Source: a bacterium
GTDB taxonomy: Bacteria > Deinococcota > Deinococci > Deinococcales > Deinococcaceae
Length of the DNA stretch: 54,543 nucleotides
Assembly: GCA_021810505.1 (NCBI GenBank)
Contig: JAJZIR010000015.1
Location: 1-54,543, forward strand
Reading direction: 5' to 3'
Below, piece after piece: positions 475 to 44,664 of the stretch. The notes under the pieces are model-generated. The model was not told the origin of the DNA. It worked only from the letters and a program-made list of their open reading frames with translations, and made no database searches. The position numbers were made by a program, and so were the translations under genes. Every line of letters starts with the position of its first letter. Positions within the stretch are counted from its first letter, which is position 1.

Positions 475-1095
475 TTAGCTTCCGAACAACGCGATGAGAT
501 TCCGGAAACTGCGAGACCGGTTCTTGGCCGGATCCAAGTTCATCCGAGTAGCCAGTTCAGAGGCAAGCTCGATTTTACGCAAGCCGCTACGAAAGTAACC
601 CGCCTCCTGCATCTCCCGTTCGAAAGCCTCACATGTTCCGCCCGTGATAGCGTCCGGATCACGAAATTTCTTGTTTTTGGGAATTGAAGCCGGGACTCTT
701 GGATAGGCTGCGCGCACTGCCTCCCAGTCGCCGAAGTACCAGGCCTCCAGCTCTTCAACGACGATTCGAGTGGCCACCTGCCAACTGACCGGTGTGCTCG
801 CGTCCTTGACCTGTAGCCCTGCTTGCTGGGCTAGCTCATTCAAGCTCTGTTTGAGTGCGCGGCAGTCATCGCCATCTCGGTCGACCAGGACGATCAGCCG
901 CCAGTTCGGCTGCAGCACCTTGGCATAAGAACGCAGGCGCGTTCCTAGCTTGCCGAGCAGGTCTGGCTTACCCCGGAAGACATGCAGTTCCAGCTTCCTC
1001 TCTTGGTTCGGAAACAGCCGCCTGAAGAAAACCTCCAAGAATACCTTCATCGACTCTTCCTCTACGAAGAGGACGAAGTGGGCTGGCCCGGTCAA
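475..1095 (-). CDS. DUF4276 (TOPRIM-like) protein, partner of the adjacent ATPase
   Basis: 206 aa. It begins with a strand carrying FVEEES (conserved acidic residue), then LVDRDGDD near residue 70 (a DxD-like motif), then EELEAWYFGDWEAV, the EAW signature of DUF4276. Together these fit a TOPRIM-like nuclease fold. The start is TTG at 1095; it overlaps the TGA of the ATPase gene as TTGA and has AAGG upstream, so the two genes are translationally coupled. In this family DUF4276 proteins are regularly encoded directly after an AAA_21-type ATPase, and the pair is thought to act in phage or plasmid defence, like the ATPase/TOPRIM pairs of PARIS and OLD nucleases. Defence function and substrate are inference. 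All expected motifs are present, so it looks intact. Confidence 0.8.
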   Translation of the reverse strand: MTGPAHFVLFVEEESMKVFLEVFFRRLFPNQERKLELHVFRGKPDLLGKLGTRLRSYAKVLQPNWRLIVLVDRDGDDCRALKQSLNELAQQAGLQVKDASTPVSWQVATRIVVEELEAWYFGDWEAVRAAYPRVPASIPKNKKFRDPDAITGGTCEAFEREMQEAGYFRSGLRKIELASELATRMNLDPAKNRSRSFRNLIALFGS

Positions 1096-2333
1096 TGGGG
1101 TCTACCTTGTTCTGGTCGAGTTGGCCAGTTCGGGTATATCGGCGGGTCGCCGGTCCCGAGGTGGCCTTCCATCCAGAGCTGACCCAGCTTACCGCCGTCT
1201 TCGAGGAACTGCTCCACCCCGGGGAGGTCCCTGGCGCGCCGGGCTTGGGTGAATCCGCTCGCATCCCGGCGCAACATCCATACCTCCCCCGGCCGCAGCT
1301 GATCCACGAAGAACGGGGAGTGTGTAGTCACGAGCAGCTGGGTACGCTCGGCCGCAGCGCGGCATTCCTCGGCTAGGCCGGCAAGCAGTGTGGGGTAGAG
1401 GAAGTTCTCCGGCTCTTCGATCCCGATGAAGGGTGGGGGCGCCGGGTCGTGGAGAAGCACCTGGTAGGCCAGCAGTTTGAGCGTACCATCCGAGACAAAG
1501 CGGGCTTGTACCGGGTTGTCGAAAGGGGCGTCCTTGACCTGCAGGAGCAGACGGCCATCAGGCATTACGGCGATCCATACGTCGTTCAACTGCGGAACGC
1601 TGCGCCGTAGCGCTTCGAGGGTGTGCTCCAAGCGGTCTGGATGCTGCTCCTGTAGGTACTGGACTACGTTCGCCAGGTTGTCTCCACTTCTGGAAAGGTG
1701 TTCTTCCGGTCCTACCGCCGGCTGACTCCGCGCACCGGCAAGGGATAGATAGGACACATACCAGCTCCTGATGAACTGGCGCAGCGCAGCTACTCTGGGG
1801 TGATCGGAAAACTGACCCAGGGCATTGACCGCCAGGAGATCAGGAGAGCTCAGTGCCAGCGGGGGGCGCTGTGCCTGCTGCTCCGGAGATTCCCCGCTGG
1901 CAGCGCTGCCCTCCCCCCTATGAAATTCTAGGAAACGCCACGGCCTGCCCCTGGAGCCGCGCCTCCAAGCCAGGGATTCATCGGTGATGATAAGGCGTCC
2001 CTGCTGCTCGTCGGCAGCCAGGTGGTAGGTGATCGGGGGGTACTTGGGCTGCTCGCGGTACTTGATTTCAATGCTGACTGGACCGTCCACCCCGCGGGTT
2101 TTCAGCTCCTTGGCGCGCCCGCGGCTATCCCAGGCGGGGCGCAAGCCGTGGTCAAAGCATTCGGCCAAAAAGGCAAGGGCGTCAAAGACGGTGGACTTCC
2201 CGCTCCCATTAGGCCCGAGGAGAACCGTGAGAGGGGTCAGGTCAGTCAGCTTGACCTCCTTGAGGGCACGGAAGTTTTTTACTTTCAAGGATTCGATGCG
2301 GGCAAGATTGGTCGATATCGGTGCCGTCTCCAT
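1092..2333 (-). CDS. AAA_21/RecF-like ATPase of a two-gene (DUF4276) defence-like module
   Basis: 413 aa from ATG 2333. A longer frame opens at GTG 2357, but a GAGGAGGAG ribosome site lies directly before the ATG at 2333, which decides the start. It has an SMC/RecF-type N-terminus (IESLKVKNFRALKEV), Walker A GPNGSGKS at residues 40-47, a Walker B/D-loop region reading GIEEPENFLYPTLL, and a TTHSPFF switch histidine. The C-terminus (LGQLWMEGHLGTGDP) is of the type found in DUF4276 partners. It probably uses ATP binding or hydrolysis to gate the downstream DUF4276 protein. Both genes lie among IS remnants. The two-gene architecture is clear; the defence role is inferred from family context. Confidence 0.85.
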   Translation of the reverse strand: METAPISTNLARIESLKVKNFRALKEVKLTDLTPLTVLLGPNGSGKSTVFDALAFLAECFDHGLRPAWDSRGRAKELKTRGVDGPVSIEIKYREQPKYPPITYHLAADEQQGRLIITDESLAWRRGSRGRPWRFLEFHRGEGSAASGESPEQQAQRPPLALSSPDLLAVNALGQFSDHPRVAALRQFIRSWYVSYLSLAGARSQPAVGPEEHLSRSGDNLANVVQYLQEQHPDRLEHTLEALRRSVPQLNDVWIAVMPDGRLLLQVKDAPFDNPVQARFVSDGTLKLLAYQVLLHDPAPPPFIGIEEPENFLYPTLLAGLAEECRAAAERTQLLVTTHSPFFVDQLRPGEVWMLRRDASGFTQARRARDLPGVEQFLEDGGKLGQLWMEGHLGTGDPPIYPNWPTRPEQGRPH

Positions 2334-2530
2334 GTCCGACTCCTCCTCAAATGGCACTCCGCACTCGGGCCAGGCTTGGGCCTGCGGCTCCAGCCACGGT
2401 CCCTAGCGAGAGGCTACGACCTGCCGCTCCGCCCCGCCACCCGGGACTGCTGCCCGGCTCTAAGGATAGGCAGTCGCGCAGAGTGCTGGCAGCCAGATCA
2501 GGCTAACACCCACTCGGCCCACGCTGCGGG

Positions 2531-8289: not shown

Positions 8290-8412
8290 AAAGACGAAAC
8301 TCGGTGACCGGACCCTGGATACCGCCTAGGTTGCTGGTATGCAGCGGGCGGCGACCTGATTTATTATGTCCACTACCCAGAGCTTAGGGCGCCCCTAAGC
8401 TGTCCAACTGGA
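8290..8412. repeat. Dispersed ~120-bp repeat, copy 1
   Basis: This segment matches 12358-12480 in the same orientation at roughly four bases in five. It begins near TCGGTGACCGGACCCTGGATACC, includes CCAGAGCTTAGGG and ends at GTCCAACTGG. No frame is conserved, and the terminal GTCCAAYTGG resembles an IS end. The two copies sit at the 3' ends of the gtrA (set 1) and GT-C (set 2) genes, so they are either decayed IS copies or part of the duplication that produced the two sets. Confidence 0.6.
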
Positions 8413-12357: not shown

Positions 12358-12480
12358 GGAGCGAATCTCGGCGACCGGACCCTGGATACCGTCTAGATTG
12401 TTGATGTGCGGCGGGCGGTAACTTGATTCATCATGTTCACTATCCAGAGCTTAGGGTGCCCCTAGATTGTCCAATTGGCT
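12358..12480. repeat. Dispersed ~120-bp repeat, copy 2
   Basis: Second copy of the 8290-8412 repeat, here ending at GTCCAATTGG. It is directly followed by the IS-end-like element at 12480-12519. It lies in the convergent gap between the GT-C gene and the three-domain glycosyltransferase gene. No rho-independent terminator is seen in the gap. Confidence 0.6.
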
Positions 12481-12523: not shown

Positions 12524-15500
12524 CTAGGGATAGGGTAGCAGAAATTCGCCATTCTCCTGATCGAAGAGGATGCTTTTCAGCCGGTCTGCACTCTGCTTCC
12601 AAGTTAACCAGGAAATACCAGCACTCGAGGGATTGCTGCCCGACTTGGCCAGCTCCAACCAAGTCTTGATGGCACTGGCCAGATCAGCTGGCTCTGCTCC
12701 AGAGAAATAGAAGGCTCCTTCGCCGGCAACTTCGCGAAACACCGGAATGTCGCGTGCGATCAGGGGGAGTCCATGTCTGGCCCCTTCAATAAGTGGTAAA
12801 CCAAAGCCCTCACCTTCGCTGGCACAGATGAGGCAGCTTGCGGTTCGGTAGAGTTCTTCCAGGTACTCGTCGCTGATTCCTTTAAGCCAAAAGAGCCGCT
12901 TGCCCAACTCAGGGTGAGACTCGAGCAGGGATACTTGAGCTTCAACCATCCAGCCACGCTTTCCCACGACGATCAGCAAGCATTCGAAGCCCTCCTTCCA
13001 TAAAAGATCAAAGGCACGGATAGCTTGGAAATGCCCCTTGCGTGGTTCGACCGTCCCGACCATCAGAAAAGAGGGGCGCGCCTGCATAGCTGCGAAAATG
13101 GCTTTGGCATCCTCAGGAATACCGCGAGACGGTTCTGACTCTTCGATATCCGCCGCGTTCGGGCATATTGCTATGGCGAAAGACCGCCGAGTATCTCCTG
13201 TACCATTCTTGGTCAGCCACCGCTTGAGATCGGCCGCTGTATTTGCAGATACACAGATGGCGCCATCCATAGTTTCCACCAGCCTTAGCCATTGAGCAAA
13301 GACGCCAGAATCTGCAGCCGGAAACCACTCAGGGTGCAAGACGGGTAGTAGGTCTTGGACGACAAACCAGGCATGAGCACCGTCTTCTCTGAGTTGGCGC
13401 AAGAACTGCTGCTGTGCCAGGACGGTGCCGCAAGCAAGATCAAGGCCTAGGAAAATATCACCGGGATAGTAATCGATCGGCTCGTCGCCCAGAGGAGTAG
13501 CCGGATAACCAAGAAAGCCGAGAGTAAATTGGCGCGCATAAAAGTAGCCTGGCCGTTCAGGTACGGCGTAGACAGGTTCCACCCTGCACCCATCTGGAGG
13601 ATTGCGGAGGAGCTGTCTGAGGATCCCACGCGTGAATCTTTCGACTCCTGTTCTTAAATCGGTGACCACAATAGGGGAAATATCCACGAACAGCTGCCTA
13701 GGCAGTCCAGCTGGCTTGAAGTTCTTAGCCAAGGCTTGCGCATAGCCCACAAGGTCGTCGTCAGGCGAAGAACTCAGAGCCCCACCAGCGGCCATCGCGG
13801 CCGGTAGAGCAAGGGGTTTGGCTTGGCTATCCGGGAAAAGCTGCTCAATAGCTTCGGCATATAAATCTGCGCAGTGCCGCGGGCTCCACTTCAGACATTC
13901 CTCAAGAGCGCGTCGGCCCAGGCTTCGGCGCAAGAATTCGTCTTGCCGAAGCCGCTCGAGTTCGGCAGTTAACTCTGTCAGCTCTACCACATCTGGGAGC
14001 ATCAGGACAGAGCCTTCAGGTAACTCGGCTATGCTGCCGTGTGCGTTGGCCAGAATGGGGAGGCCGTAGCTCATACAGTCCCAGATAGCTCCTGAGGTCT
14101 CCCCCCGACTGTTTGTCCTCAGCTGCACCGCGAGATCAGCTGCCCCCAGGTACCGGTGGTACTCATCGCCAGAGGTCCAGCCGGTGATACGGATGCGATC
14201 CGCCGCACGGCTGGCGCGCGCAGAAGCTATAACGGCCTGTCCATACTCGTTATCCGCCTCACCAACAAAGATGAGCCAGGCATTCGGATCATCAGCTAGG
14301 GCCGATACTTCCCAAGCCTTGATGAGCAGTTCGTTGTGCTTGTTGGGATTGAGGACTCCGAAGCTGCAGACCAAGAAGGCGCCTTCTGGAAGTCCGAGTG
14401 CACGCTTTGATTGCGACCGGTCCGGCCTGCTATCAGATCGCTGCTGTACCAGGTGCGGGATTACTCTCCAAGAGTCAGCAACCTCGCTACCGTACCAAAA
14501 AGATGCCAATTGTTTCGTGTGCATGGAGTGGACAATCACGCCCTGAGCATGCCGAACGGCGCTCAGATTGCATGGATAGCGCAACATCGCCTGAGGCGGA
14601 TCTTTAAGGCGTTCAGCAACGGCGCAGTATCCATGGGCGAGAAGGAGTTCTTTGGTCCAAGCCACTGGACGGTACTTGGTATCTTCATCATGAGCCTGAA
14701 CCGAGCTCAGGAAGAAGTCGTGCAGTACGACCACACCAGGGTGCAGGTCGAGCAAATCGAACATGTAGCTGTGGTACGGCGAATTCCCGAACTGGTAAAG
14801 AGTGCGATCGAAACGGCCTGCATTTTGCCGGAACCACTCTGGAGAGCGTACGGTACAGTTGGATGCGACCCACGAAGAACCCACCTCGGATCGCGGCGTT
14901 ATGACCTCAATCTCGTAATGGCGAAGTAGCTCAGGAAGGAGCGCCGCACTGTAAGTAGCCACTCCGGTTTTCTCTGGGGGGAGAGGGGAGATGAAGGCCA
15001 GGCGTTTACGCTTGACGGAGTGCGCTTTGGGTACCGGGGGGCAGGCTACGAGGCCGCGTTGCAGTTCTTCTAGGGCTGTAGTAGCCAGGTGGGCGCATTT
15101 CTCCCAGGAAAGCTCGGCCGAGCGCTTGGCACTGTCCATGCTCAATTCTGAGCGCAGGTCCTCGTTCGCCAAGACCCAGGCCATCTTCGCGCTCATCTCC
15201 CCCGCGTCGAGAGGGTCGAACAGCAGGTCTCGGCGGTTGACAATCTCCGGCACGCTGGAGGAGTTCGCGGCTAGGACGGGGGCGCCGCAGGCCATGGCTT
15301 CGAGGAGGGTTGAGGCAAAACCTGCCCTTAGAGCAGGAAAAATGAACAGGCTGCAGCTGCTGTAGAGCGTACGGAGCTCCTCGTCGGTGGCGTGGCCGGT
15401 CATGACTACTTCTCCCCCTGCCAGTCCACGGTCGCCAGCCAACTGCCGTAGCTCCTCCTGGTGTTTGGAGGAAATAGTCCCCACCAAAGCGAGCTGGAAG

Positions 15501-16282
15501 CAGCTCCGTAGAGAGGTAGGTAGCAACGCAAAGGCTTCGACCAGCTTCTCCAGATTTCCGTCCCCGCCCGCTCTTTCTATGCCCATCAAAAAAGGCCTGA
15601 TCAGACCAAATTGAGCACCCAGCGGGCTACTCCCCTCGATAGGCAGCTGCTCTTGCTTACAGAAAAAGCTGGCAGCTGCTGCTCCGATGGTAACAATCCG
15701 CTCTGGGGGAATCGCTAGCTCGCGGATAGCCTCGCGCCTCGAGAAGTCGGACACTGCTAACAGCAGATCCGCCTTCCTGAGATAGTCCAACTTCCTGTGA
15801 TAGTGGTGGTAGTAGGCCTCATAACCAGGAACAGACCTCAGATGTAGCGCAGGGTTGGTCGGCGGGGTCAGGCCGTACAGCACGACCGCAGTCGGGACCT
15901 TGCAGAAGCGCCCCACGCTGGTAGCTGCATCGTCCGCGAACCCTTCAAACAGGCTCGGAACTAGCACCAGATCTGGTTGCAAAGAGGACAGGAAACCCTC
16001 CCTGAGCAACTCGGCCGCCTCTCTCCGTGGCGTATTGTCAGGGTCTGCCTCGCGTATCGGCCCCGGAGCATGCCAAATCCGTATGGCTCCCTTCGGAAGC
16101 TGATCATCAAAGCCAGAGCGGATCGCATCGAATGAATCCCTCAGTAATCCGCTGAGGACGAGGATGACCTCGTGTCCGGACCGGTTCTCGAGAAGAGCCC
16201 GCGCCAGAGAAAAAGCGTAGCGACCGGTTCCGCGCGACCGGTTTTCGCTCTGTACCCCTTGTAGATCAATGGCGATGCGCAT
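12524..16282 (-). CDS. Three-domain GT4 glycosyltransferase fusion (paralogue 1)
   Basis: 1252 aa from ATG 16282, whose A is shared with the TGA of the FkbM gene (TGATG). Three GT-B/GT4 units lie in a row: A (1-415), B (425-800) and C (860-1252). C has intact motifs (GTVEPRKGH; SEGEGFGLPLIEG). B has FGVLNPNKHN and GETSGAIWDCMSYG. In A the sugar-nucleotide motifs are eroded: the expected GG.DPRKN is replaced by GIERAGGDGN and EGFGLPVLE by AGFASTLLE, while the rest of A still aligns with paralogue 2. The protein is soluble with no signal peptide, so it probably adds two or three successive sugars to a lipid-linked glycan on the cytoplasmic face. Fusion order and coupling to FkbM are shared with 26665-29991. 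Confidence 0.85.
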   Translation of the reverse strand: MRIAIDLQGVQSENRSRGTGRYAFSLARALLENRSGHEVILVLSGLLRDSFDAIRSGFDDQLPKGAIRIWHAPGPIREADPDNTPRREAAELLREGFLSSLQPDLVLVPSLFEGFADDAATSVGRFCKVPTAVVLYGLTPPTNPALHLRSVPGYEAYYHHYHRKLDYLRKADLLLAVSDFSRREAIRELAIPPERIVTIGAAAASFFCKQEQLPIEGSSPLGAQFGLIRPFLMGIERAGGDGNLEKLVEAFALLPTSLRSCFQLALVGTISSKHQEELRQLAGDRGLAGGEVVMTGHATDEELRTLYSSCSLFIFPALRAGFASTLLEAMACGAPVLAANSSSVPEIVNRRDLLFDPLDAGEMSAKMAWVLANEDLRSELSMDSAKRSAELSWEKCAHLATTALEELQRGLVACPPVPKAHSVKRKRLAFISPLPPEKTGVATYSAALLPELLRHYEIEVITPRSEVGSSWVASNCTVRSPEWFRQNAGRFDRTLYQFGNSPYHSYMFDLLDLHPGVVVLHDFFLSSVQAHDEDTKYRPVAWTKELLLAHGYCAVAERLKDPPQAMLRYPCNLSAVRHAQGVIVHSMHTKQLASFWYGSEVADSWRVIPHLVQQRSDSRPDRSQSKRALGLPEGAFLVCSFGVLNPNKHNELLIKAWEVSALADDPNAWLIFVGEADNEYGQAVIASARASRAADRIRITGWTSGDEYHRYLGAADLAVQLRTNSRGETSGAIWDCMSYGLPILANAHGSIAELPEGSVLMLPDVVELTELTAELERLRQDEFLRRSLGRRALEECLKWSPRHCADLYAEAIEQLFPDSQAKPLALPAAMAAGGALSSSPDDDLVGYAQALAKNFKPAGLPRQLFVDISPIVVTDLRTGVERFTRGILRQLLRNPPDGCRVEPVYAVPERPGYFYARQFTLGFLGYPATPLGDEPIDYYPGDIFLGLDLACGTVLAQQQFLRQLREDGAHAWFVVQDLLPVLHPEWFPAADSGVFAQWLRLVETMDGAICVSANTAADLKRWLTKNGTGDTRRSFAIAICPNAADIEESEPSRGIPEDAKAIFAAMQARPSFLMVGTVEPRKGHFQAIRAFDLLWKEGFECLLIVVGKRGWMVEAQVSLLESHPELGKRLFWLKGISDEYLEELYRTASCLICASEGEGFGLPLIEGARHGLPLIARDIPVFREVAGEGAFYFSGAEPADLASAIKTWLELAKSGSNPSSAGISWLTWKQSADRLKSILFDQENGEFLLPYP

Positions 16283-18209: not shown

Positions 18210-18515
18210 GGCCGACCGCCGCCCACTATCTCCAAAGAGACGGTGGCCTATTTGGCCACCCGACCGGGGCGTTCTGAGTATGCCCATACGCCTGAGCATG
18301 GTTCTTGGCTCAACCTGATCGAATGCGCCTTCTCGAGGATAGCCCGGACCTTCCTCCGCCACATCCGCGTCGCTTCGGTCCCCGATCTCAAGGCCCGCAT
18401 CTTGACCCGCATCTTGAAGGGGACTGATGCAATGCACGCCACCCCGGCCGTTTTCCGGTGGAAGAAGTTCGACCTGGAGATCGTACAATACGTTATTGCC
18501 AGAACGATCTACTAG
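18210..18515 (+). pseudogene. IS630-family transposase, C-terminal fragment
   Basis: In one frame the sequence reads SKETVAYLATRPGRSEY, then HTPEHGSWLNLIECAFS with the final catalytic Glu of the DDE triad, then ARTFLRHIRVASV and FRWKKFD, to TAG 18513-18515. This is the characteristic IS630 C-terminus. Upstream the frame is broken by a stop at 18207 and the DN.S.H motif is frameshifted, so only the last third is readable. It belongs to a different IS630 subgroup from the tail at 3-113. Sequence from 18008 to 18209 may be more of the same element in other frames. From 18516 to 19090 I see no gene. Confidence 0.85.
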
Positions 18516-19144: not shown

Positions 19145-20146
19145 GTGACAACTCGTTCCGTGTCCACTCTCCTGCACCGGTTGTCGAGGGCAGGGTTTAA
19201 ACGTGATTTTGTGCGCCTAGCAATCTTGCCCGATTGGTGGAGTGAGTCCTTCGAATCCGATAACAACCTGCTTCCAGACCTCGAATTGCGCGTAGCCCGG
19301 TTCCTGGGCATGACGGTAGCCAATGTGCGGGACCCGTCGCACCCCCTAGCTTTCCCGACGGTCCACAGTACAGTACTTCGCAGGGCAGCCAACGTAAACA
19401 CAGAGCAGCTACGACCGGCTATTCACGCTGCGCGGCGCGTAGCCGAGGCCGTAGTACGCAACATGTGTACTAGTCGCACATCCACGATACCGGCAATACC
19501 GGAACATTGGCGGCGTGAGCTGGTGAGTGGTAAGACCCCGGTTGCGTTGGAAGGAATGTTGCACGATCTTTGGAAGCGTGGTATTCCCGTGATCCCGATG
19601 GAATGTCTGCCATCTCCTTCGTTCCAAGGTCTGGCTGCCATAATCGAAGGGCACCCGGTCATCGTCATTGGACAGAAGCACGATGCCCCCGGGCGCGTTG
19701 GATTCTTCGTGGCACACGAAGCCGGCCATATTGCCGCCGGTGATTGCAGAGCTGATAAGACGATTGTGGATGAGGAGGAAACTACCTCCGACTGGTCGGA
19801 GCTTGAGACGCGGGCTGATCGGTACGCCTCGGATGTACTGCTGAATGGGGTCTCGGCGGATAAGCTCACGGGCCACGATTACCGGGAGCTTGCAGCGAAT
19901 GCCTACAGCATCGAGAGCGAAACTGGAGCTGAGGCCGGTGCACTCATTTTCCATTGGGCCCGTCAAAACGGGGATTTTTCAACGGCTTCGAGGGCTGTTG
20001 GTGCCCTTTACCAAAACCGTGGCGCCCGCCAGACAATGCGGCGCTTACTGGTCGAAAACGTCAACTTGGATGACACGTCGGAAACTGACCGGGCGCTTAT
20101 CGATCTCGCAGCCTGTGAGGCGGGCTCAACTGCGATTGCTGATTGA
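19145..20146 (+). CDS. ImmA/IrrE-type (COG2856) metallopeptidase
   Basis: 333 aa from GTG 19145, preceded by TAGGAGGT seven bases upstream. The zinc site is FFVAHEAGHIAAGD (HExxH) near residue 194, with a downstream ETRADRYASDVLL supplying the third ligand region (ExxA.xxA). An N-terminal ~120 residues are helical and could hold a degenerate DNA-binding or sensor part. ImmA-type proteases cleave repressors of mobile elements and IrrE/PprI plays this role in the Deinococcus damage response; here the neighbour is a PIN-like gene, so a toxin-antitoxin-like pair is more likely than a housekeeping IrrE. The gene overlaps the PIN-like frame by 32 bases. GC content looks lower than in the core genes, and IS debris flanks it. 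Confidence 0.8.
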   Translation: MTTRSVSTLLHRLSRAGFKRDFVRLAILPDWWSESFESDNNLLPDLELRVARFLGMTVANVRDPSHPLAFPTVHSTVLRRAANVNTEQLRPAIHAARRVAEAVVRNMCTSRTSTIPAIPEHWRRELVSGKTPVALEGMLHDLWKRGIPVIPMECLPSPSFQGLAAIIEGHPVIVIGQKHDAPGRVGFFVAHEAGHIAAGDCRADKTIVDEEETTSDWSELETRADRYASDVLLNGVSADKLTGHDYRELAANAYSIESETGAEAGALIFHWARQNGDFSTASRAVGALYQNRGARQTMRRLLVENVNLDDTSETDRALIDLAACEAGSTAIAD

Positions 20147-25344: not shown

Positions 25345-26430
25345 TCATAAAGTACCCATGACGAATTTGTCCAGCCAAGTATCGGCCTCTCGCGCCAAGG
25401 AGATGCGGCGAAACTGGGAAGCGTCGCCGAGTCGGCTCACCAGGATCAGGTCATCTGGGGAAAACTGATTGATCAGAATGGCCGACTGGGTGGCAGCGAT
25501 GACCTGGGTCTTGTCCGATGCCAGCTGCATCATGTCGGCCAGCTGGTACAGCGCACAGGGGTGCAGCCCCAACTCTGGCCCATCCAGCAGGATGATGGCC
25601 GGCGGCTCCGGCTGCAACAATAGCGCTGCCAGACAGATGAAACGCAGCGTGCCGTCCGAAAAGTCACTGGCGTAGAACGTATAGCCAGAACCACGATGCT
25701 TCCATCGCAGGCGGATCAGCTCGGGATTGTCGCGCTCCGGCTCCAGAACGAAGTCGAGAAAGAATGGCGCAACCCTCTGAATGTAGCTGACGATCAGCTC
25801 GTAGGCGCGCTTTTCCCACACGGACCCTCCCCGCATCGACCAGAGGAAGGCGGCCAGGTTATCCGCTTGTGGTAACAGCCGGCCCTTGTCGATGCGCCCA
25901 GGCTGCTTGACTGCGGACGATTCGTTGATATCGTGGAAGTGATAGACTTCCCAGTCCCGCAAGTAATTGACCGTACATCCTTCCACGGTTCTGCGGTTCG
26001 GCCGGTCAGGCAAACTCGATTCCCTTGCTTCTCCGCAGGAGAGCAGAGTTTTCTCCGTGCCGCTAGAGTACTTGAAGCGACGATCCCCGAAGAACTGGCA
26101 AGTCTCGTAGATAAACACCAGCCTGCCGTCGGCGTCTGTCACGAGGCTGGCCGCGTAGGCGTTGGGTGCAAATTCAAGGTAAAAGTGCAGCGACCCTGAG
26201 CGCTCGTGCCCAAAAAACAGCAGCTTGTCTGTGCCCAGCTGCTGGTCCACGTAAGCTTGCAGATTTTTCGCGACTATTTGACGGACCAGCTTGAAAAAGC
26301 CGATAAAGTTTGACTTGCCTGCGCCATTTAAACCGATCAGCACATTGAGGGCTCTCAATTCCAATTCCACGTATTCGATGGACCTGAATCCCTGGATTTT
26401 TATTCGGTTCAGTTTCCTAAAGTCTCCCAT
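25345..26430 (-). CDS. Orphan AAA_21 ATPase with altered Walker B
   Basis: 361 aa from ATG 26430 (TAGGAGA upstream). The N-terminus is RIKIQGFRSIEYVELELRALNVLIG, Walker A is GLNGAGKS at 33-40, the signature-like region contains FSDGTLRF, and the Walker B is IILLDGPELGLHP followed by AATQSAILINQF. Relatives read LLDEPELGLHP; the catalytic glutamate after the Asp is Gly here (GAT GGG). Relatives are usually followed by a coupled DUF4276 gene. Here the TGA still overlaps an ATG (ATGA at 25345-25348), but that frame stops after eight codons. The partner is thus missing and the ATPase probably cannot hydrolyse ATP normally. Retained or dying defence gene cannot be told apart from sequence. Confidence 0.8.
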   Translation of the reverse strand: MGDFRKLNRIKIQGFRSIEYVELELRALNVLIGLNGAGKSNFIGFFKLVRQIVAKNLQAYVDQQLGTDKLLFFGHERSGSLHFYLEFAPNAYAASLVTDADGRLVFIYETCQFFGDRRFKYSSGTEKTLLSCGEARESSLPDRPNRRTVEGCTVNYLRDWEVYHFHDINESSAVKQPGRIDKGRLLPQADNLAAFLWSMRGGSVWEKRAYELIVSYIQRVAPFFLDFVLEPERDNPELIRLRWKHRGSGYTFYASDFSDGTLRFICLAALLLQPEPPAIILLDGPELGLHPCALYQLADMMQLASDKTQVIAATQSAILINQFSPDDLILVSRLGDASQFRRISLAREADTWLDKFVMGTL

Positions 26431-26664: not shown

Positions 26665-29600
26665 TCAGGAGGGCGGTCCCAAAAGTAGCCGCTCGCGCTC
26701 ACTTTCGCAGGTCAGCACGTCCTTCAGCCGGCTTGCGCTCTGCTCCCAAGTCAGCCAGGCAACCGGTGTACTTGAAGGAACCCTTGCCGACTTCGCCAAT
26801 TCCAGCCAAACCCTGACAGCGGCCGCTAAATCGGCCGCCTCCTTGCCGGAAAAATAGAACGCCCCTATCCCTGCGACCTCCCGAAAGACTGGAATGTCGC
26901 GGACGATCAGTGGAAGCCCGTGCTTCGCCCCTTCGATGATCGGCAAACCGAACCCCTCCCCTTCGCTGGCGCAGATGAGGCAGCTGGCGGCCTGGTAGAC
27001 CCGCTCGAGGTATTCGTCGCTGATCGCTTCCAGCCAGAAGAGCCGCTTGCCGAGCTCGGGATGGGATCTCAGCAGGGCTACCGGATCGTCAACCATCCAG
27101 CCGCGCCTGCCGACGATGATCAGGTTGACGTCTAAACCCTCCTCCCACAGGAGATCAAACGCTCGGATGGCTTGCAAGTGCCCTTTGCGGGGTTCGATCG
27201 TTCCGACCATCAGGAAGGAGCGTCGGCTGCGTATACTCTCCAGAACTTTCTCTGCGCCCTCAGGCATACCTCGGGAGGGCTGCGACTCTTCGATGTCGGC
27301 GGCGATCGGGCACACCGCTAGATGGAAGGGCAGGAGGCCCTTTCTGCCCCTCTCCACTAGCCAACGCCTCAGGTCTCCTGCCGTGCTAGAGGAGCTGCAG
27401 ATGGCGCCTTCCATGCCGCCGACCAATTCGAGCCACTGAGCGAAACTCTCGGTGTCTCCGGCGGGGAACCACTCCGGATGGAGAACGGGAAGCAGGTCAT
27501 GCACGAAGAACCAGATGTGCACTCCGCTACCCCGCATCTGTTCCAGAAGCCGCTCCTGCGCTAGAGAAAAATTGCAGGCGAAGTCGAGTCCTAGGAAAAT
27601 ATCCCCGGGGTAGAAGTCTATCGGCTCATCCTCCAAAGGGGAGCCGGGATACCCCAAGAAGCCCATCGTGAACCGGCGCGCATAGGAGTAGCCGAGCCGC
27701 TCCTGCGCCGCGCGGACAGGCTCCACCCGGTACCCCTCCGGGGGGTCTCTGAGCAGCTGCTTGAGGATCCCGCGGGTGACGCGGTGGGTTCCTGTCCTCA
27801 GGTCGACGCGGGCGATGGCGGAGACATCCACAAACAGCTGCCGGGGTAGCCCTATGGGCTTGAAGCTCCGTACGAGAGCTCGCGCGTAACCTTCCAGGTC
27901 ACTCTGGGAGGCGGACTTCAGGGCTCTGCTGGCCGCCATCGCCCCGGGCAAGGCGGAGGGGCTGGTCTGGCCCGCTGCAAAGAACTGCTCTATGGCTTCG
28001 GCGTACAGGTCGGCGCAGCGCCGCTCGGACTCCTGCGGAGCGCGCCGGCTCAGCTGCTCCGGCGCCGCTCCGCTTTGCTGGAGCCGGTCCGGCTCTACGG
28101 CCGGCTGTCCCGGCTCGGCCGAGCTTGGGGGCACCGGGGCGGCGTCCCCGGGGAGCTCGGCCGCGCTCTCCCGCGCGATGACCCTCCAGGGCGCCGCCAC
28201 CTCCTCGCCGTACCAAGACGCAGCCAGCTGCTTGGCGTGCGCCGAGTGGACGATCACCCCCTGGGCCTGCTGCAAGACGCTCAGGTTGCAGGGATAGCGC
28301 AGCTCAGCTGCTAGCGGATCGGCCCAGCACTCGGCGACGGCTCGGTATCCGTGGGAATGCAGGAGCTCTCTGGACCAGGCAGCTGGGCGGCGCCCTTGCG
28401 CCTCGCCCTCGGCCCGCGCCGAGCTCAGGAAGAAGTCGTGCAGTACGACCACACCAGGGTGCAGCTCGAGCAGGTCGAACATATACGCGTGGTGGGGTGA
28501 ATTCCCGAACTGATAGAGCACCCGGTCGAACTGGGCTGCGTTCTCTAGGAACCACTCAGGAGAGCGCAGCGGGCAGTTCTCGGCCACCCAACCGGCAGCT
28601 ACTTCGGCCTGGGGTGTCACCACCTCGATCTGGTAGTGGCGGGACAGCTCGGGGAGGAGCGCCGCGCTGTAGCTGGCAATACCGGTCTTCTCCGGCGGGA
28701 GAGGGGAGACAAAGGCCAGGCGCGGGCGCTTCCCAGGTCGCTCCGCCGGCCGGATGGGCCTCTGGGGGACGAACTCCCTCCTCAGCTGCTCTAGGGCCGC
28801 GACCGTCCGCTGGGCGCACTTCTCCCAGGAGAACTCGGCCGCGCGGCGTATCCCGTAGGCGCTCAGCTCCCGGCTCAGCCGCTGGTCGGTCAAGACCTGG
28901 GCGATTTTGGCGCCCATCTCGCTGGCGTCGTAAGGATCAAACAATAGGTCCTGCCGCCCGATGACCTCGGGCAAACTGGAGGAGTTCGCAGCTAGGACCG
29001 GAGCGCCGCAGGCCATGGCTTCGAGGACCGGTAGGCCGAAGCCCTCGTGGAGAGACGGGAAGACGAACAGGCTGCAGGCGCTGTAGAGCGCGCGGAGCTC
29101 CTCGTCCGTGACATAGCCCGTCATGACGACCTCCCCGCTCCCCAGCCCATGACCTTTCGCGGCCCGCTTCAGCTCTTGCACGCGGCTGGGAGGAATTCCC
29201 CCTACTAGGCCCAGCTGAAAGCTGTCTCGGATCTGGGCGGGCAGCTGCGCGAAGGCCTCGGTCAACCGCTCTAGATTCTTGCGCGGGTCCGCTCCCCCTG
29301 CGTACATCACGAAAGGCTTGGTGATACCGAAACGCTCCGGAAAGCTGCCGTGGCTATCCGCCGGTGGCTCCACCCGGTGGAAAAAGCTCGCCGCTGCCGC
29401 CCCTACGGTGGCGATCCGCTCCGCGGGGATCGCCGCTTCCTGGACAGCCTCCTGCTTGCAGAACTCTGAAATCGCCAGCAAGAGGTCCGCTCTTCGGAGA
29501 TATTCCAATTTCGTTCGGTAATAAGGTTCGTAGCCGGGGAAAGGTGTCAGGTAGAGTTCGGGATGCACCAGGGGGATGAGGTCGTACAGGACAGCGGCGG

Positions 29601-29991
29601 TGGGGACTGCGGGGTCGAAGAGGCCCACGCTGGTGACCGCGTCGTCTATGAATCCCTCGAACAGGCTCGGGACTAACACCACATCCGGCTTCAGGGAGGA
29701 TAGAAAAGCCTCGCGGATCAGCTGGGCCGCAGCTCTCCGGGCTGCGTTGCCGTCGTCGGCCCGCAGCGGTCCGGGTGCGTACCAGACTCGGATGGACTCT
29801 TGGGGTAGCAGGCCGTCGAAGGCCGAGCGGATCCTCTCTAGCGAATCCTTTAGCAGCCCGTTGAGGACCAAGGTGATCTCGTGCCCGGACCGGCTCCTCG
29901 CGATGGCCTGGACCAGGGACATGGTGTAACGGCCGATCCCCCCCAAGCGGCTCTCGCTCTGGGCTGCCTGGAGGTCTATAGCGATGTGCAT
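26665..29991 (-). CDS. Three-domain GT4 glycosyltransferase fusion (paralogue 2), middle domain truncated
   Basis: 1108 aa from ATG 29991 (TGATG overlap with the preceding frame). It aligns with 12524-16282 from end to end except in the centre. Domain A (1-410) is intact: GGADPRKNLERL and LHEGFGLPVLEAMACG. Domain C (~700-1108) is intact: GTIEPRKGH and SEGEGFGLPIIEG. Domain B keeps only its N-lobe (LAFVSPLPPEKTGIASYSA to WRVI). The following ~200 residues that bind the sugar nucleotide in paralogue 1 are replaced by ~50 proline/alanine/glutamine-rich residues, after which CADLYAEAIEQ resumes the match. It is thus a two-enzyme protein joined by a dead middle lobe. Roles in building the same surface glycan are inferred. 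Confidence 0.85.
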   Translation of the reverse strand: MHIAIDLQAAQSESRLGGIGRYTMSLVQAIARSRSGHEITLVLNGLLKDSLERIRSAFDGLLPQESIRVWYAPGPLRADDGNAARRAAAQLIREAFLSSLKPDVVLVPSLFEGFIDDAVTSVGLFDPAVPTAAVLYDLIPLVHPELYLTPFPGYEPYYRTKLEYLRRADLLLAISEFCKQEAVQEAAIPAERIATVGAAAASFFHRVEPPADSHGSFPERFGITKPFVMYAGGADPRKNLERLTEAFAQLPAQIRDSFQLGLVGGIPPSRVQELKRAAKGHGLGSGEVVMTGYVTDEELRALYSACSLFVFPSLHEGFGLPVLEAMACGAPVLAANSSSLPEVIGRQDLLFDPYDASEMGAKIAQVLTDQRLSRELSAYGIRRAAEFSWEKCAQRTVAALEQLRREFVPQRPIRPAERPGKRPRLAFVSPLPPEKTGIASYSAALLPELSRHYQIEVVTPQAEVAAGWVAENCPLRSPEWFLENAAQFDRVLYQFGNSPHHAYMFDLLELHPGVVVLHDFFLSSARAEGEAQGRRPAAWSRELLHSHGYRAVAECWADPLAAELRYPCNLSVLQQAQGVIVHSAHAKQLAASWYGEEVAAPWRVIARESAAELPGDAAPVPPSSAEPGQPAVEPDRLQQSGAAPEQLSRRAPQESERRCADLYAEAIEQFFAAGQTSPSALPGAMAASRALKSASQSDLEGYARALVRSFKPIGLPRQLFVDVSAIARVDLRTGTHRVTRGILKQLLRDPPEGYRVEPVRAAQERLGYSYARRFTMGFLGYPGSPLEDEPIDFYPGDIFLGLDFACNFSLAQERLLEQMRGSGVHIWFFVHDLLPVLHPEWFPAGDTESFAQWLELVGGMEGAICSSSSTAGDLRRWLVERGRKGLLPFHLAVCPIAADIEESQPSRGMPEGAEKVLESIRSRRSFLMVGTIEPRKGHLQAIRAFDLLWEEGLDVNLIIVGRRGWMVDDPVALLRSHPELGKRLFWLEAISDEYLERVYQAASCLICASEGEGFGLPIIEGAKHGLPLIVRDIPVFREVAGIGAFYFSGKEAADLAAAVRVWLELAKSARVPSSTPVAWLTWEQSASRLKDVLTCESERERLLLGPPS

Positions 29992-39533: not shown

Positions 39534-40128
39534 CCAGTTCAGGCCCCTGCGCGCAGGTCCTGCCCGGCTAGGACCGGGGACGCCCGGACCACCCCAGCAG
39601 GGGAGGCAGGCCGCAGAGCCAGCGGAGTGCTGCCTGGCCGGTAGGCTGCGCGGGCACCCCACCCCGGCACTGCTGGGGGATCTACCGCCGCCGGCCACCT
39701 CCTGGGCCTGCGGCGCGCCTTGGGACCGGCGGAGAGCGGCCCCGCCCCACCGCCCCGAGGAGCTGGGCGGCTCCAGCGAAAGCGCAGGCGGCGGTTGCCG
39801 AGGTTCGTAGTGCTGCACGGCAGTTGCATGAACAGGACGTGTCGTACCAGCGCACTCACCGACTCGTGCGCTGAAGAGCGGGACCGCCCCGGAGCGATTT
39901 GGCGTGGCCGCTGGTAAGCGTGCCGGCGCAGCTGCGCTGTGACCTTCGTCGCTGCTCCGACTCTCGGCCGGGAGAAGAAGCCGGCGCCGCTGGCCACGAC
40001 CTTGGGGCTAGGGTGCGAGTCTCTTCGGTATCGGCGCGCCGCGGGCAGGTGCCATCCTCTTCGCCTGCTGGGCTGCGCCCCCAGAGGGAGCGCTCCGAGT
40101 TGCCCCGGTCACCCCCTCGGCCGCCCTC
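39534..40128. other. GC-rich gap without recognisable gene
   Basis: Six hundred bases between the rhamnosyltransferase start and the duplicated gene end at 40129. Open frames on both strands are short and of unusual composition, with no ribosome sites. I see no RNA gene or terminator. Confidence 0.5.
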
Positions 40129-40342
40129 CGGCCAGGCAGCCGCGGGTCCCCTCAGAGCCTGGTCCTGCGCTTCTGGTAGCGCCCGGTGCGCAGCTCGTGG
40201 ACGTACTCGCGCACGAAGGGCATCTGGGTCATCTCGGCCACCGCCACCTCGGCCTCGCGGTCGTAATTCACCCGGGCGATGGTGCTGCTGTAACCGTCGG
40301 GCTCGAACTCCAAGATCAGATAGCTGGCCAGCATGCTGTCCA
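40129..40342. repeat. 214-bp direct repeat, left copy (duplicated 3' end of a metallophosphoesterase gene)
   Basis: Matches 42100-42313 in the same orientation with about five differences, including one single-base indel in the untranslated part. The two copies bracket a 1.75-kb segment that carries the DUF1828/DUF6978-type pair. The repeat covers the last ~63 codons of the metallophosphoesterase plus ~22 bases past its stop. Confidence 0.92.
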
Positions 40343-40343
40343 A
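40152..40343 (-). pseudogene. Metallophosphoesterase C-terminal fragment
   Basis: Encodes the final ~60 residues (LASYLILEFEP to KRRTRL) almost exactly as in 42123-42842, with one difference (EFEPDG against EFEPNG) plus changes at the break. It lacks the metal-binding motifs and any ribosome site, so it is a by-product of the duplication and not a working gene. It lies directly after the stop of the DUF1828-type gene. Confidence 0.88.
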
Positions 40344-40379
40344 ACTGCTATAGCTTCTCCAGCGCGCCCATCTTTGCGA

Positions 40380-41156
40380 TTACGCCGCCGAGGTAAGCAT
40401 GGAGACAAACTCGTCCGGCCGCGACCACTGGCCGATGTCCGAGATCGATTCGACCAACTTGAAGTCTTCTTCTGACCACACGTCGGCGGTATCGTCGAAC
40501 AGGGAGATGAACCGCAGCGCCTGTGGGCCGACGCGCATCGGCGACAGATCGTGCCACTCCGCGATAACATGCTCGGCCACGCGCCGGGCACCTGCACGCG
40601 AGCCGGTGGTGAGTACAGACACCAGCGCGCTGCTGCGTTCCGTACGGGTCTGAAAATCTACAGTCCAGTCGCGGCCTGAGCGCCCAGCGAGTTTCACCGC
40701 GCGTTCAAAGGGAATACGTCGCTCCTGAAGATAGTCAGCGACCTCATCGGTTACGGACTCCACAGACCGCGTGCGCGTCGTGAACCATAAGTCGGATATG
40801 CGTACCACCGCTTGCCCGATACGAAGGACCCCGTCGGAAAGCTGCGCCAGGTCGTCGCCACGCAAAAACAGTTGTCCTTCGAAAAGCTCAACCCCGAGCG
40901 TCATGCAGACGTCTTGAAGAAGCCGCCGTTGCTTGGGGGAACGCTGCGCCGGCGTTGTTTGAAGGCGTAACCAGCCCAAAGCCTCCCCTAAATCGGTCAC
41001 CTCGAAATGCCCGCCGCGCATGCGTACGAATACGTCGATCAAGCCGCCGTCGGGATACAGAAACGGCGTGCGCACTCGCACAAACCCTCGGTGCGGTTTG
41101 CACTCGAAGAGCGCTCCGAGCTGATCGGTCAGCGCTTCGCGGATCTTCGCGCTCAT
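40380..41156 (-). CDS. DUF1828/DUF1829-type protein of a two-gene module
   Basis: 258 aa from ATG 41156, overlapping the stop of the upstream gene as ATGA. The N-terminal half (VRVRTPFLYPDGGLIDVFV, then FEVTDLGEALGWL) fits DUF1828; the C-terminal half (DWTVDFQTRTERSSALVSVLTTGS to SLFDDTADVWSEEDFKLVESISD) fits DUF1829. Such proteins occur with a small partner in mobile or defence-rich regions; no activity is established as far as I know. The fold of the C-terminal half has acidic residues reminiscent of nuclease-type domains, but I cannot identify an active site. Lower GC than the core genes and flanking direct repeats indicate acquisition by transfer. Confidence 0.72.
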   Translation of the reverse strand: MSAKIREALTDQLGALFECKPHRGFVRVRTPFLYPDGGLIDVFVRMRGGHFEVTDLGEALGWLRLQTTPAQRSPKQRRLLQDVCMTLGVELFEGQLFLRGDDLAQLSDGVLRIGQAVVRISDLWFTTRTRSVESVTDEVADYLQERRIPFERAVKLAGRSGRDWTVDFQTRTERSSALVSVLTTGSRAGARRVAEHVIAEWHDLSPMRVGPQALRFISLFDDTADVWSEEDFKLVESISDIGQWSRPDEFVSMLTSAA

Positions 41157-41617
41157 GAGAAATCCCCAAGCCTCGGCTGTGTGGTCGGCAGGCGCTGTAA
41201 CTTCCCGCGGTGGGAAATTCTGGCTTCGGCACAGAACTGCTGCCACACCCCTGCCAGGTCTTCGGCGGGTGCGGTAATATCCTCCGGGATATAGGCTTGT
41301 TTGTCGGCATACTGGTCAGTCCAACGGTGCTTGTGCTTTTCGCCAACTCTTTGGCAGGTCGGATTGTGATGATCTGCACCTAAATCCAAGGCATACACTC
41401 GGCCCGTCGTCCGGTGAAGCAAGGTATAAGACAGCGTACCGGCGAGCTGGTTGTAGCGACCCCTGACCGAGAGCGGATATCCCGTATCGGAGCGGACTTC
41501 TGCTCGAAATTCAACCGCAGGCGAATGATCGGGGTCTTCCCCCCACTGCAAGTCTCCTTCGATCCACTTTGCCGCGTCATCCATCATCGCATCGAACTCG
41601 CTTTGGCTGATCGGCAT
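41153..41617 (-). CDS. DUF6978-like small protein, partner of the DUF1828-type gene
   Basis: 154 aa from ATG 41617, with a GGGAGG-type purine run just upstream. It reads SQSEFDAMMDDAAKWIE at the start, SVRGRYNQLAGTLSYTLLHRTTGRVYALDLG in the middle, then H.NPTC and the HKHRWTDQYADKQAYIPEDIT block that I associate with DUF6978. The C, H and W residues in that block may bind metal. It is first in the two-gene operon. The steady pairing with a DUF1828 protein suggests a two-component system such as toxin-antitoxin or restriction-like defence; that is inference. Confidence 0.6.
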   Translation of the reverse strand: MPISQSEFDAMMDDAAKWIEGDLQWGEDPDHSPAVEFRAEVRSDTGYPLSVRGRYNQLAGTLSYTLLHRTTGRVYALDLGADHHNPTCQRVGEKHKHRWTDQYADKQAYIPEDITAPAEDLAGVWQQFCAEARISHRGKLQRLPTTQPRLGDFS

Positions 41618-42099
41618 TGCCCCCCCTCCCTACTTATCGGATACTTTAATGGATTGGTCTGGTGCATTCCAGGGGCGCACTTCTCGCGGTTTCTTGATTC
41701 TGCGCGCGGCTCTCCGGGAACCAGGCAGAGGTCGGCGACACCTGGCGCAACACCCGTGAAGGGCGCGACGGCGAGGTCACCCTGTAGTTGCGCTCACTGC
41801 CGGATTGGCCCGGCGCATCCTCCCGCAGTTTTCGCTGCTACCTTAGGCGTGATCCTCCGGTCGGGCTATGGACAGACAGCATGCCCTTGCATTGTTGAGC
41901 TCGAGCGTGTACTCCGTGTACTCAAGGAATCAAGGAACTAGGGAATGCAGAGTGAGCTGGGCGCTGCGCTGATCAAACTACCCAAGCGCTCGATCAAACT
42001 ACCGGATAGGGCGGGCGGCTCCTAGCTCCGGTCGAGCGTTTCGGTAGACTCACGCTCCAAGCGCAGACGCGGACGCGTATCCAGTCGGCGCGGCCGTAC
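41618..42099. other. Non-coding part of the inserted segment
   Basis: Holds the promoter region of the module and a 12-bp direct repeat (GATCAAACTACC) at 41971-41982 and 41992-42003, i.e. 21 bases or two helical turns apart. No integrase, transposase or gene is readable. Confidence 0.5.
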
Positions 42100-42313
42100 C
42101 CGGCCAGGCAGCCGCGGTCCCCTCAGAGCCTGGTCCTGCGCTTCTGGTAGCGCCCGGTGCGCAGCTCGTGGACGTACTCGCGCACGAAGGGCATCTGGGT
42201 CATCTCGGCTACCGCCACCTCGGCCTCGCGGTCGTAATTCACCCGGGCGATGGTGCTGCTGTAGCCGTTGGGCTCGAACTCCAAGATCAGATAGCTGGCC
42301 AGCACGCTGTCCA
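42100..42313. repeat. 214-bp direct repeat, right copy (in the intact metallophosphoesterase gene)
   Basis: Partner of 40129-40342. This copy is part of the complete gene and therefore the likely source. The match stops sharply at GCTGTCCA in both copies, where the left copy runs into the DUF1828-type gene end. Confidence 0.92.
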
Positions 42314-42842
42314 GTGGGTTTCCCACGCTGCCGGTGTTGATGAGGGGCCTGCCCTCGACGTCCACGATCAGCGCCTCGTGCACGTCGGCGTAGACCACCG
42401 CGTCGGCGGTGCTGTGCAGGTCGTGCTCGGCCTGTGGCTGGAACATCTCGCGCTGGTCCGGCAGCGAGGAGTGCGGGTAGATCCGGTGGAAGACGCTCTT
42501 GGCCGAGGCGTGGACGAAGCGCCAGAGCATCCCCGAGAAGGTCTCCTCGTGGGCGAAGGCCAAGTTGGACAGGTACTCCAGCTGGCCGGGGCTGAGCTGC
42601 GAGCGGGGCCACAGATCCTGGGGCCGGTTGCTGGCTCCCGCCACCCGGATGTCCCAGTTGCCCATCAGCGCCACGCTGGCGTGGCTGGCTACCCAGTCGA
42701 GCACCTCTTTGGGCCGTGGTCCCTTGCCGACCAGGTCCCCCAGCACCCAGATGTCGCCGATCCCTCGTCGCTGGATGTCTTCGTGTACGGCCAAGGTCGC
42801 CGTCAGGTTGGCATGTAGATCCGCAATCACCGCTAGTCGCAT
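42123..42842 (-). CDS. YfcE/MJ0936-like metallophosphoesterase
   Basis: 239 aa from ATG 42842. Calcineurin-like motifs in order: RLAVIADLHANLTA (D-x-H), VLGDLVGKGPRPKEVLDW (GD), LMGNWDIRV (GN.D in place of GNHD), and INTGSVGNP near the end. The usual GHTH motif is read as YADVHEA, so one metal ligand may differ. It is a cytosolic phosphodiesterase or phosphatase of unknown substrate. A TAGACT -10 seven bases before the ATG gives it its own leaderless transcript, apart from the ribosomal operon upstream. Its 3' end is duplicated beyond an inserted module. Confidence 0.83.
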   Translation of the reverse strand: MRLAVIADLHANLTATLAVHEDIQRRGIGDIWVLGDLVGKGPRPKEVLDWVASHASVALMGNWDIRVAGASNRPQDLWPRSQLSPGQLEYLSNLAFAHEETFSGMLWRFVHASAKSVFHRIYPHSSLPDQREMFQPQAEHDLHSTADAVVYADVHEALIVDVEGRPLINTGSVGNPLDSVLASYLILEFEPNGYSSTIARVNYDREAEVAVAEMTQMPFVREYVHELRTGRYQKRRTRL

Positions 42843-43791: not shown

Positions 43792-43811
43792 GAGGGCGGG
43801 AACCCGCCCTC
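43792..43811 (-). promoter_or_regulatory. Hairpin between ssb and rpsR
   Basis: GAGGGCGGG AA CCCGCCCTC can form an 8-9 bp stem. It overlaps the ssb stop codon and ends 15 bases before the rpsR ATG. It may adjust the ratio of ssb to rpsR-rplI expression by attenuation or RNA processing. Confidence 0.5.
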
Positions 43812-44664
43812 AGAATGGCAAATCGTCTTCTGGCGGTGGAAAATCTTGCAAGCCGTCCTCGATATCTGGGCTGCTCGAATGGGACCCCTGGGTAGGAGCA
43901 GGCGTGCTTCGGGCTTGTCGGCCGCCTGCTGGGGTGGCGCCGGCGCTGCCAGGGGCTGCCGGGCCTCGAGTCAAAGCCTCGACGCGTATCGCTTCTACTC
44001 TTGTGGCGCTGCGCTTCTGCCCTTCCTTGTCGGTCCAGGAGTCGTTCCTGACCCGGCCCTGCACCAGCAGCGAATCGCCCTTGTGCAGGCCGGCGGCCTG
44101 CTCGGCCAGCTCCCTCCAGGCGTTCACGTCGATCCAGTGGGTCCGCTCCTGCCAGTTGCCGTCCCGGCCTTTCCAGGACTCGCTGACCGCCAGCGCGAAG
44201 CTGGCCACGGCGTCCCCTGAGCTGGTGTAGCGCAGCTCCGGATCGCGGCCCAGATTGCCGACCAGGGTGACCTCGTTGACGCCGTTCTGCAGGCGCACTC
44301 CGCCCCCGGCGTCGCTGATCAGCTGCTCCTTGGGCCTCTGGAGCTGCTCGATCCTCAGCGCCTTGACCGAGGTGGCGCTGCGCTTCTGCCCCTCCGGCGT
44401 CTCCCAGGAGCGCTGTTCCAGCGATCCCTCGACCAGCAGGGCGTGCCCGGCCTTGACCTGCTCGGCGATGGTCTCCCCGCTCTTCCCCAGCAGGCTGACC
44501 CGGTGGTACCAGGGTAGGGTACGGGGTTGCCCGTCCGCCCCGGTCACCGTGTCCTCGCCGGCCACGGTCAACTCCAGAACCGGGGTCCCCGAGGGGGTGT
44601 ACCGCAGTTCGGGGTCGCGGGCGGCGGCGCCCACCAGAAAGACGTGGTTCATACCTCGCGCCAT
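43810..44664 (-). CDS. ssb: Single-stranded DNA-binding protein with two OB folds
   Basis: 284 aa from ATG 44664 (GGAGGAA upstream). Two OB-fold units follow each other: MNHVFLVGAAARDPELRYTPSGTPV (res 5-110) and VNEVTLVGNLGRDPELRYTSSGDAV (res 128-235), each with its own W..V and EG/QGR strand motifs. A glycine/proline-rich linker leads to the acidic tail ending PEDDLPF, the protein-recruiting tip. Two OB folds per chain, acting as a dimer with four folds, is the hallmark of Thermus/Deinococcus SSB, whereas most bacteria use a ~170-residue single-fold tetramer. It coats ssDNA in replication and repair. Confidence 0.98.
   Translation of the reverse strand: MARGMNHVFLVGAAARDPELRYTPSGTPVLELTVAGEDTVTGADGQPRTLPWYHRVSLLGKSGETIAEQVKAGHALLVEGSLEQRSWETPEGQKRSATSVKALRIEQLQRPKEQLISDAGGGVRLQNGVNEVTLVGNLGRDPELRYTSSGDAVASFALAVSESWKGRDGNWQERTHWIDVNAWRELAEQAAGLHKGDSLLVQGRVRNDSWTDKEGQKRSATRVEAIRVEALTRGPAAPGSAGATPAGGRQARSTPAPTQGSHSSSPDIEDGLQDFPPPEDDLPF

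Follow-up and report, generated by a model that had tools for sequence, protein, structure and literature searches.

A candidate two-gene defence unit, PDC-M24, between two copies of a metallophosphoesterase gene end: a probable insertion with long target duplication

A locus in a Deinococcaceae genome raises in a compact form the question of how small defence modules that lack an integrase move between phyla, and of how they become embedded in other defence operons: how did two genes come to lie between two nearly identical copies of the end of a neighboring gene? The locus is part of a 54.5-kb stretch of DNA, hereafter referred to as the window, which is the whole of contig 19 in a 26-contig assembly.

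The duplicated gene end and its insert

The gene whose end is duplicated encodes a metallophosphoesterase (YfcE/calcineurin-like; 42123–42842, minus strand; Pfam Metallophos_2, 3e-12) and is intact. Its last 191 bases, including the stop codon, and the 23 bp behind them make up one copy of a direct repeat (copy R, 42100–42313, minus strand), and the other copy (copy L, 40128–40342, minus strand) is an orphan gene end consisting of 63 codons, a stop codon, and 24 bp. The two copies align over 215/214 bp with four substitutions and one single-base indel. The 214-bp repeat occurs at these two places only, no third copy being found in the whole 2.31-Mb, 26-contig genome, and no other direct repeat in the window reaches 80 bp at more than 90% identity, which excludes a chance origin. 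Another direct repeat in the window (8295–8411 and 12362–12478) is 117 bp long with 83% identity, its copies about 4 kb apart.

Between copies L and R lies an insert of 1757 bp (40343–42099) that contains only two genes, here referred to as A and B. Its upstream part is a spacer of 482 bp between copy R and gene A (41618–42099), followed by gene A (41153–41617, minus strand), which encodes a protein of 154 aa with a DUF6978 domain (7e-13) and is assigned to PDC-M24A by PADLOC. A 4-bp ATGA overlap joins A to gene B (40380–41156, minus strand), which encodes a protein of 258 aa with a DUF1828 domain (4e-10) and a PD-(D/E)XK-like domain at the C-terminus, and is assigned to PDC-M24B; a spacer of 37 bp (40343–40379) separates the stop codon of B from copy L. 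The insert has a GC content of 0.60 compared to 0.65 in the window, and the GC content at third codon positions is 0.63–0.71 in the A/B pair compared to 0.90 in the metallophosphoesterase gene.

No integrase or transposase is present near the pair, which is adjoined by glycosyltransferase and ribosomal genes. No terminal inverted match of the insert rises above the range of shuffled sequences, which rules out transposon ends, and no tRNA was found in the 54.5-kb window, which rules out tRNA-targeted integration. The original prediction, made from the letters alone, had described a segment at 40343–42099 bracketed by near-identical metallophosphoesterase 3′ ends, holding an ATGA-coupled DUF1828/DUF6978 pair of lower GC than its surroundings and accompanied by neither integrase, transposase nor tRNA; on all of these points it agrees with our results.

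Such a structure could in principle be produced by the assembly, if strain variants or a mis-join had given rise to two copies and a foreign contig, and the 26 contigs and the foreign composition of the pair would be in keeping with this. However, the copies differ at five positions, which assemblers rarely generate from one copy; the pair is whole and continuous with the flanking DNA on both sides within the 54.5-kb contig; and some other repeat-flanked pairs come from records without a MAG label (L069, L078, and L089). We consider an artefact very unlikely, and the duplication-bracketed insert is confirmed as genuine.

Several other features of the window were recorded along the way. A second candidate defence pair, consisting of an AAA_21 ATPase and a DUF4276 protein, is encoded at 475–2357 (minus strand; PADLOC HEC-01, 4e-157 and 9e-70), and a lone AAA_21 ATPase at 25345–26430 (minus strand) matches the PADLOC HEC-01A model (2e-113). 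An ORF at 19145–20146 (plus strand) has weak PADLOC matches to RmrA, CapP, and PD-Lambda-2_B (best 1e-9) and belongs to no Pfam family. Another at 18243–18515 (plus strand) resembles the end of an IS630-type transposase by eye, with no Pfam match. Two long, similar ORFs of 1252 and 1108 aa (12524–16282 and 26665–29991), glycosyltransferase-like by eye, share blocks of 72–75% DNA identity.

A native gene end and an immigrant gene pair

Orthologues of the metallophosphoesterase with 79–81% protein identity are present in two other members of the family (G001 and G003), where they adjoin rplI-rpsR-ssb. In both, the gene end (72–76% DNA identity) is a single copy without the A/B pair and the downstream DNA is different, the comparison being made at the family level. 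An SSB with two OB domains, a feature that suggests a Deinococcota host, is encoded at 43810–44664 (minus strand) of the window. Relative to G001 and G003, the orphan copy L is derived at three of the four substituted sites and copy R at one, the polarity call resting on these four sites only, and two of the derived sites in copy L are amino-acid changes. As the derived states are mostly in the orphan, they point to a duplication within the lineage, after which the copy without a use decayed, and the duplicated gene end looks native rather than imported.

The pair itself appears to have a different history. Searches of 110 other genomes from the phylum did not find B, not even in family members in which the target gene is retained. 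When the search was widened to 400 genomes, one genome from another phylum (G289) yielded a B that is 52% identical, and an alignment of this sequence with the B of the window, used as a query, retrieved 41 further loci. These PDC-M24 relatives, 42 loci in total, are 40–62% identical and spread over about 15 phyla, including Myxococcota, Planctomycetota, Chlorobiota, Nitrospirota, Acidobacteriota, Cyanobacteriota, and Pseudomonadota. In nearly all of them A is directly upstream of B, usually with the 4-bp overlap. In a tree of B the phyla are intermixed, with the exception of one Chlorobiota group, and this mixing together with the number of phyla indicates that the pair spreads horizontally. 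Likewise, the absence of the insert from the family and the phylum and its foreign composition argue for its horizontal acquisition, as the original prediction had assumed. The finding that it named as refuting, the presence of the pair at this place in all relatives, did not occur among the 110 genomes. The pair in the window is most likely an immigrant.

These data also bear on the possibility that homologous recombination delivered the pair, either by Campbell-type integration of a circle or by transformation with DNA of a related strain in which this gene end already stood beside it, the strain having obtained the pair by another route. A homology of 214 bp can be enough for recombination, the same final structure would be produced, and a donor of this kind would be compatible with the 2% difference between copies L and R. 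On the other hand, the intact gene's copy has one derived site only, the arrangement is found in no relative among the 110 genomes of the phylum, and the explanation shifts the question to the donor. We therefore regard homologous import as a minority reading, rather unlikely overall.

Edges and flanking repeats of related pairs

The relatives make it possible to ask where the mobile unit begins and ends. L069 and L089 share 85% DNA identity from −9 to +6 bp around the ORFs, in surroundings that differ between the two, and L071 and L069 share DNA from about +22 to between +3 and +15. Among the Chlorobiota copies, the shared DNA mostly stops 7 to 15 bp behind B, and a few extend further where the neighborhood is also common; in two pairs of loci (L081/L086 and L064/L070), 80–250 bp of upstream DNA is shared along with the pair. 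Among relatives in different surroundings, no common element ends and no conserved att core were found, and the repeated targets vary by locus. As the homology ends near the ORFs, the PDC-M24 element seems to be devoid of att sites and inverted repeats and to bring no recombinase with it.

Flanking repeats recur at other loci. Direct repeats (≤700 bp on both sides) are found at 9 of the 39 other testable pairs (10 of 40 with the window included, L071 and L074 being counted as one case) compared to 8 of 503 control segments from the same loci, although six of the nine repeat-flanked relatives are on short contigs, whose ends tend to fall at repeats, and this inflates the proportion. When only long contigs are considered (at least 3 kb on either side), 3 of 27 pairs and 15 of 869 controls have such repeats (P = 0.01–0.015), two of the three cases being weak, namely L068 (tandem paralogues) and L089 (a repeat-rich locus). 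A tblastx version of the comparison gave a weaker difference (8/40 vs. 17/288, P = 0.005, window included).

At several loci the repeated DNA is again a gene end. It is the last 35 bp of a nucleotidyltransferase gene in L056, the end of a RelB-like antitoxin gene in L063 (by Pfam on the homologue in L065), the end of a YhgA-like gene in L069, and the end of hsdS in L061 and L088. The last of these is a type I restriction-modification (RM) locus, and there (L088 1–3353) the hsdS ends enclose an A-B fusion with an internal deletion and, behind it, DarT-/DarG-like genes. In L063 (7533–8768), a ParE-like ORF, recognized by eye and with no Pfam match, replaces A except for its last 15 codons, and an intact B lies directly behind it. 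The downstream copy begins 12, 15, and 31 bp behind B in L063, L056, and L068 respectively, compared to 37 bp in the window. Repeats other than gene ends also occur (tandem paralogues in L068, an internally deleted DUF7033 gene in L089, and a dispersed repeat in L071/L074), and in L069, L071/L074, and L089 the repeated DNA is a dispersed element or an entire gene that has suffered an internal deletion. The recurrence of flanking repeats at PDC-M24 pairs is thus supported, modestly so in statistical terms.

The duplication, the foreign pair, the absence of element ends, and the occurrence of the same pair with repeats of other genes elsewhere together lead us to the reading that we hold to be probable, with moderate confidence: a PDC-M24 pair from a distant bacterium was inserted a few bases behind the metallophosphoesterase gene with a long target duplication, the 214 bp being the host's own gene end. 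The incoming DNA would have carried little beyond the two genes, and the inserted unit encodes no recombinase; the cell's own recombination or repair would have joined it to the chromosome, the target end being copied meanwhile.

The original prediction had instead likened the locus to a genomic island that restores the end of its target gene. In its non-autonomous form, an integrase supplied from elsewhere would have placed a circle at the 3′ end of the gene, and the element would have restored that end. An intact gene followed by cargo and then by an orphan gene end is the classic topology of such islands, and a gene end is the repeated part at several loci. Usual att cores, however, are far shorter than 214 bp, the insert contains A and B and no integrase, and across loci there is no common att core, the target genes differ, and the homology stops near the ORFs. 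Further, had the gene end been imported, the odd states would be expected in the intact gene, but the end of that gene is mostly native, so the polarity counts against a restoring island. This part of the original prediction is not supported, and we consider integrative-island insertion unlikely; of the two, insertion with long target duplication is the better match for the insert.

A more speculative variant, which we regard as a long shot, is that PDC-M24 spreads itself: A and/or B would act on DNA near gene ends, by cutting or marking it, and the repair that follows would insert the bare unit and duplicate the target end, in a manner that may be likened to the homing of free-standing endonucleases. 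If true, a defence module would mobilize itself with neither a recombinase nor element ends.

Putative function and comparison with known systems

The A/B pair corresponds to the two-gene candidate PDC-M24 of PADLOC-DB 2.0, both models being matched at full length by adjacent genes on the same strand in the order A then B. Protein A matches the PDC-M24A model PDLC04533 over residues 3–147 (E = 4.9e-66), and protein B matches the PDC-M24B model PDLC04540 over residues 6–255 (E = 9.8e-101). The PDC lists go back to “guilt by embedding” within defence systems of other kinds (Payne et al., bioRxiv 2024, cited in PMC12255303 and PMC12988326). A literature search found no paper naming PDC-M24, and DUF1828 and DUF6978 are barely mentioned in the papers searched. 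Sequence searches against solved structures found nothing. A different PADLOC candidate showed no activity when assayed in its native host (PMC12409345).

The predicted structure of A (pLDDT 92) is a compact beta-sheet protein with one helix near either end. A comparison of its fold with the PDB and the viral library gave no match. Across 24 relatives, the residues D28, D30, H31, H83, N85, P86, H95, H97, and D105 are conserved, as is W125, and the conserved Asp/His set suggests a metal or catalytic site. For B (pLDDT 88, pTM 0.54), the top fold matches are PD-(D/E)XK enzymes or domains such as Can2, AF1548, VC1899, R2 endonuclease, and Bax1, all weak (E 1e-4 to 5e-3 for the first four and 1e-4 to 2e-2 over all five, TM about 0.3). 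In 32 sequences of B, D167 is nearly invariant and no conserved (D/E)-X-K was found on the next predicted strand, which makes a binding or sensing protein more likely than a standard nuclease. It is our tentative guess that A is the effector, perhaps a nuclease or hydrolase, and that B is a nucleic-acid or infection sensor that controls A.

Genomic context gives further indications. Type I RM genes are beside the pair in about 9 of the 42 relatives: it lies directly between hsdS and hsdR in L059, L067, and L087, and in a type I RM context with one side visible or altered in L055, L056, L061, L062, L088, and L092. Distant homologues are found in temperate phages. In the E. coli phage ev207, the pair, whose A partner is only weakly DUF6978, is between a LexA-like repressor and N, the position that rexAB has in lambda. 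Others are next to the integrase or not far from it in Staphylococcus phage 37, Lactobacillus Lj965, Latilactobacillus P3, Streptococcus Javan249, and the satellite Javan357; the upstream neighbors in phage 37, Lj965, and P3 are DUF6978 proteins, and the homologue in Lj965 is accompanied by a superinfection exclusion gene. Based on the type I RM operon context, the repressor and integrase context in temperate phages, and the PADLOC models, we infer an anti-phage role for the pair, exercised on its own or as a back-up within type I restriction operons.

The original prediction had left the choice between a defence and a toxin-antitoxin cargo, and only the former is favored by these data. As a toxin-antitoxin module, the pair would move and persist by addiction, which would agree with its small, overlapping genes in the invariable order A then B, and with the replacement of A by a ParE-like toxin ORF in L063. 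However, B is intact with A broken or lost in eight loci and A is intact with B broken in three, some of which breaks may be sequencing or assembly errors; as either gene outlives the loss of the other, strict toxin-antitoxin logic is not supported. Neither protein has toxin or antitoxin homology (the Pfam matches are DUF6978 and DUF1828 only, and A has no fold match, including to a known toxin), and the phage copies are in immunity modules. A toxin-antitoxin role is therefore improbable. The more common loss of A (8 vs. 3, not significant) would suit A as a costly effector.

PDC-M24 was already known as a candidate, and the style of insertion with long target duplication was known from RM genes. 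New findings are that the two-gene unit has sharp edges, the flanking repeats that recur across sites, the copies in phage immunity regions and at the rexAB position, and the evidence against strict toxin-antitoxin behavior. Widespread in chromosomes and temperate phages, candidate PDC-M24 offers a workable case for the movement of such modules, as a bare, sharp-edged unit at many unlike sites, where duplicated ends can record the landing.

Similar to PrrC, RloC, and DarTG2, which are found in type I RM operons (PMC3874165, PMC2610378, PMC12255303), relatives of PDC-M24 also occupy such operons. PrrC is embedded in the EcoprrI operon, and in other bacteria the gap between hsdS and hsdR hosts DarTG2 and another pair. 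PDC-M24 has no sequence relation to these proteins, and unlike its embedded relatives the pair in the window stands alone beside ribosomal and glycosyltransferase genes, outside such an operon. Lambda rexAB and other immunity genes of lysogenic conversion offer a further parallel, the ev207 pair having its place in common with rexAB; no family match to the Rex proteins was seen, and the window is not a prophage.

For the mode of insertion, the closest parallel is that of RM genes, which are described by Kobayashi and co-workers as being inserted with long, variable target duplications, the resulting direct repeats allowing tandem amplification (Nobusato et al., 2000; Furuta et al., 2010, as cited in PMC3031569 and PMC1643837). 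The present case differs from the published ones in that its cargo is not an RM system and that it comes from one genome, whereas a comparison of strains defined the published ones. It resembles them in being a small defence gene unit with long target repeats that vary by site and with no recombinase.
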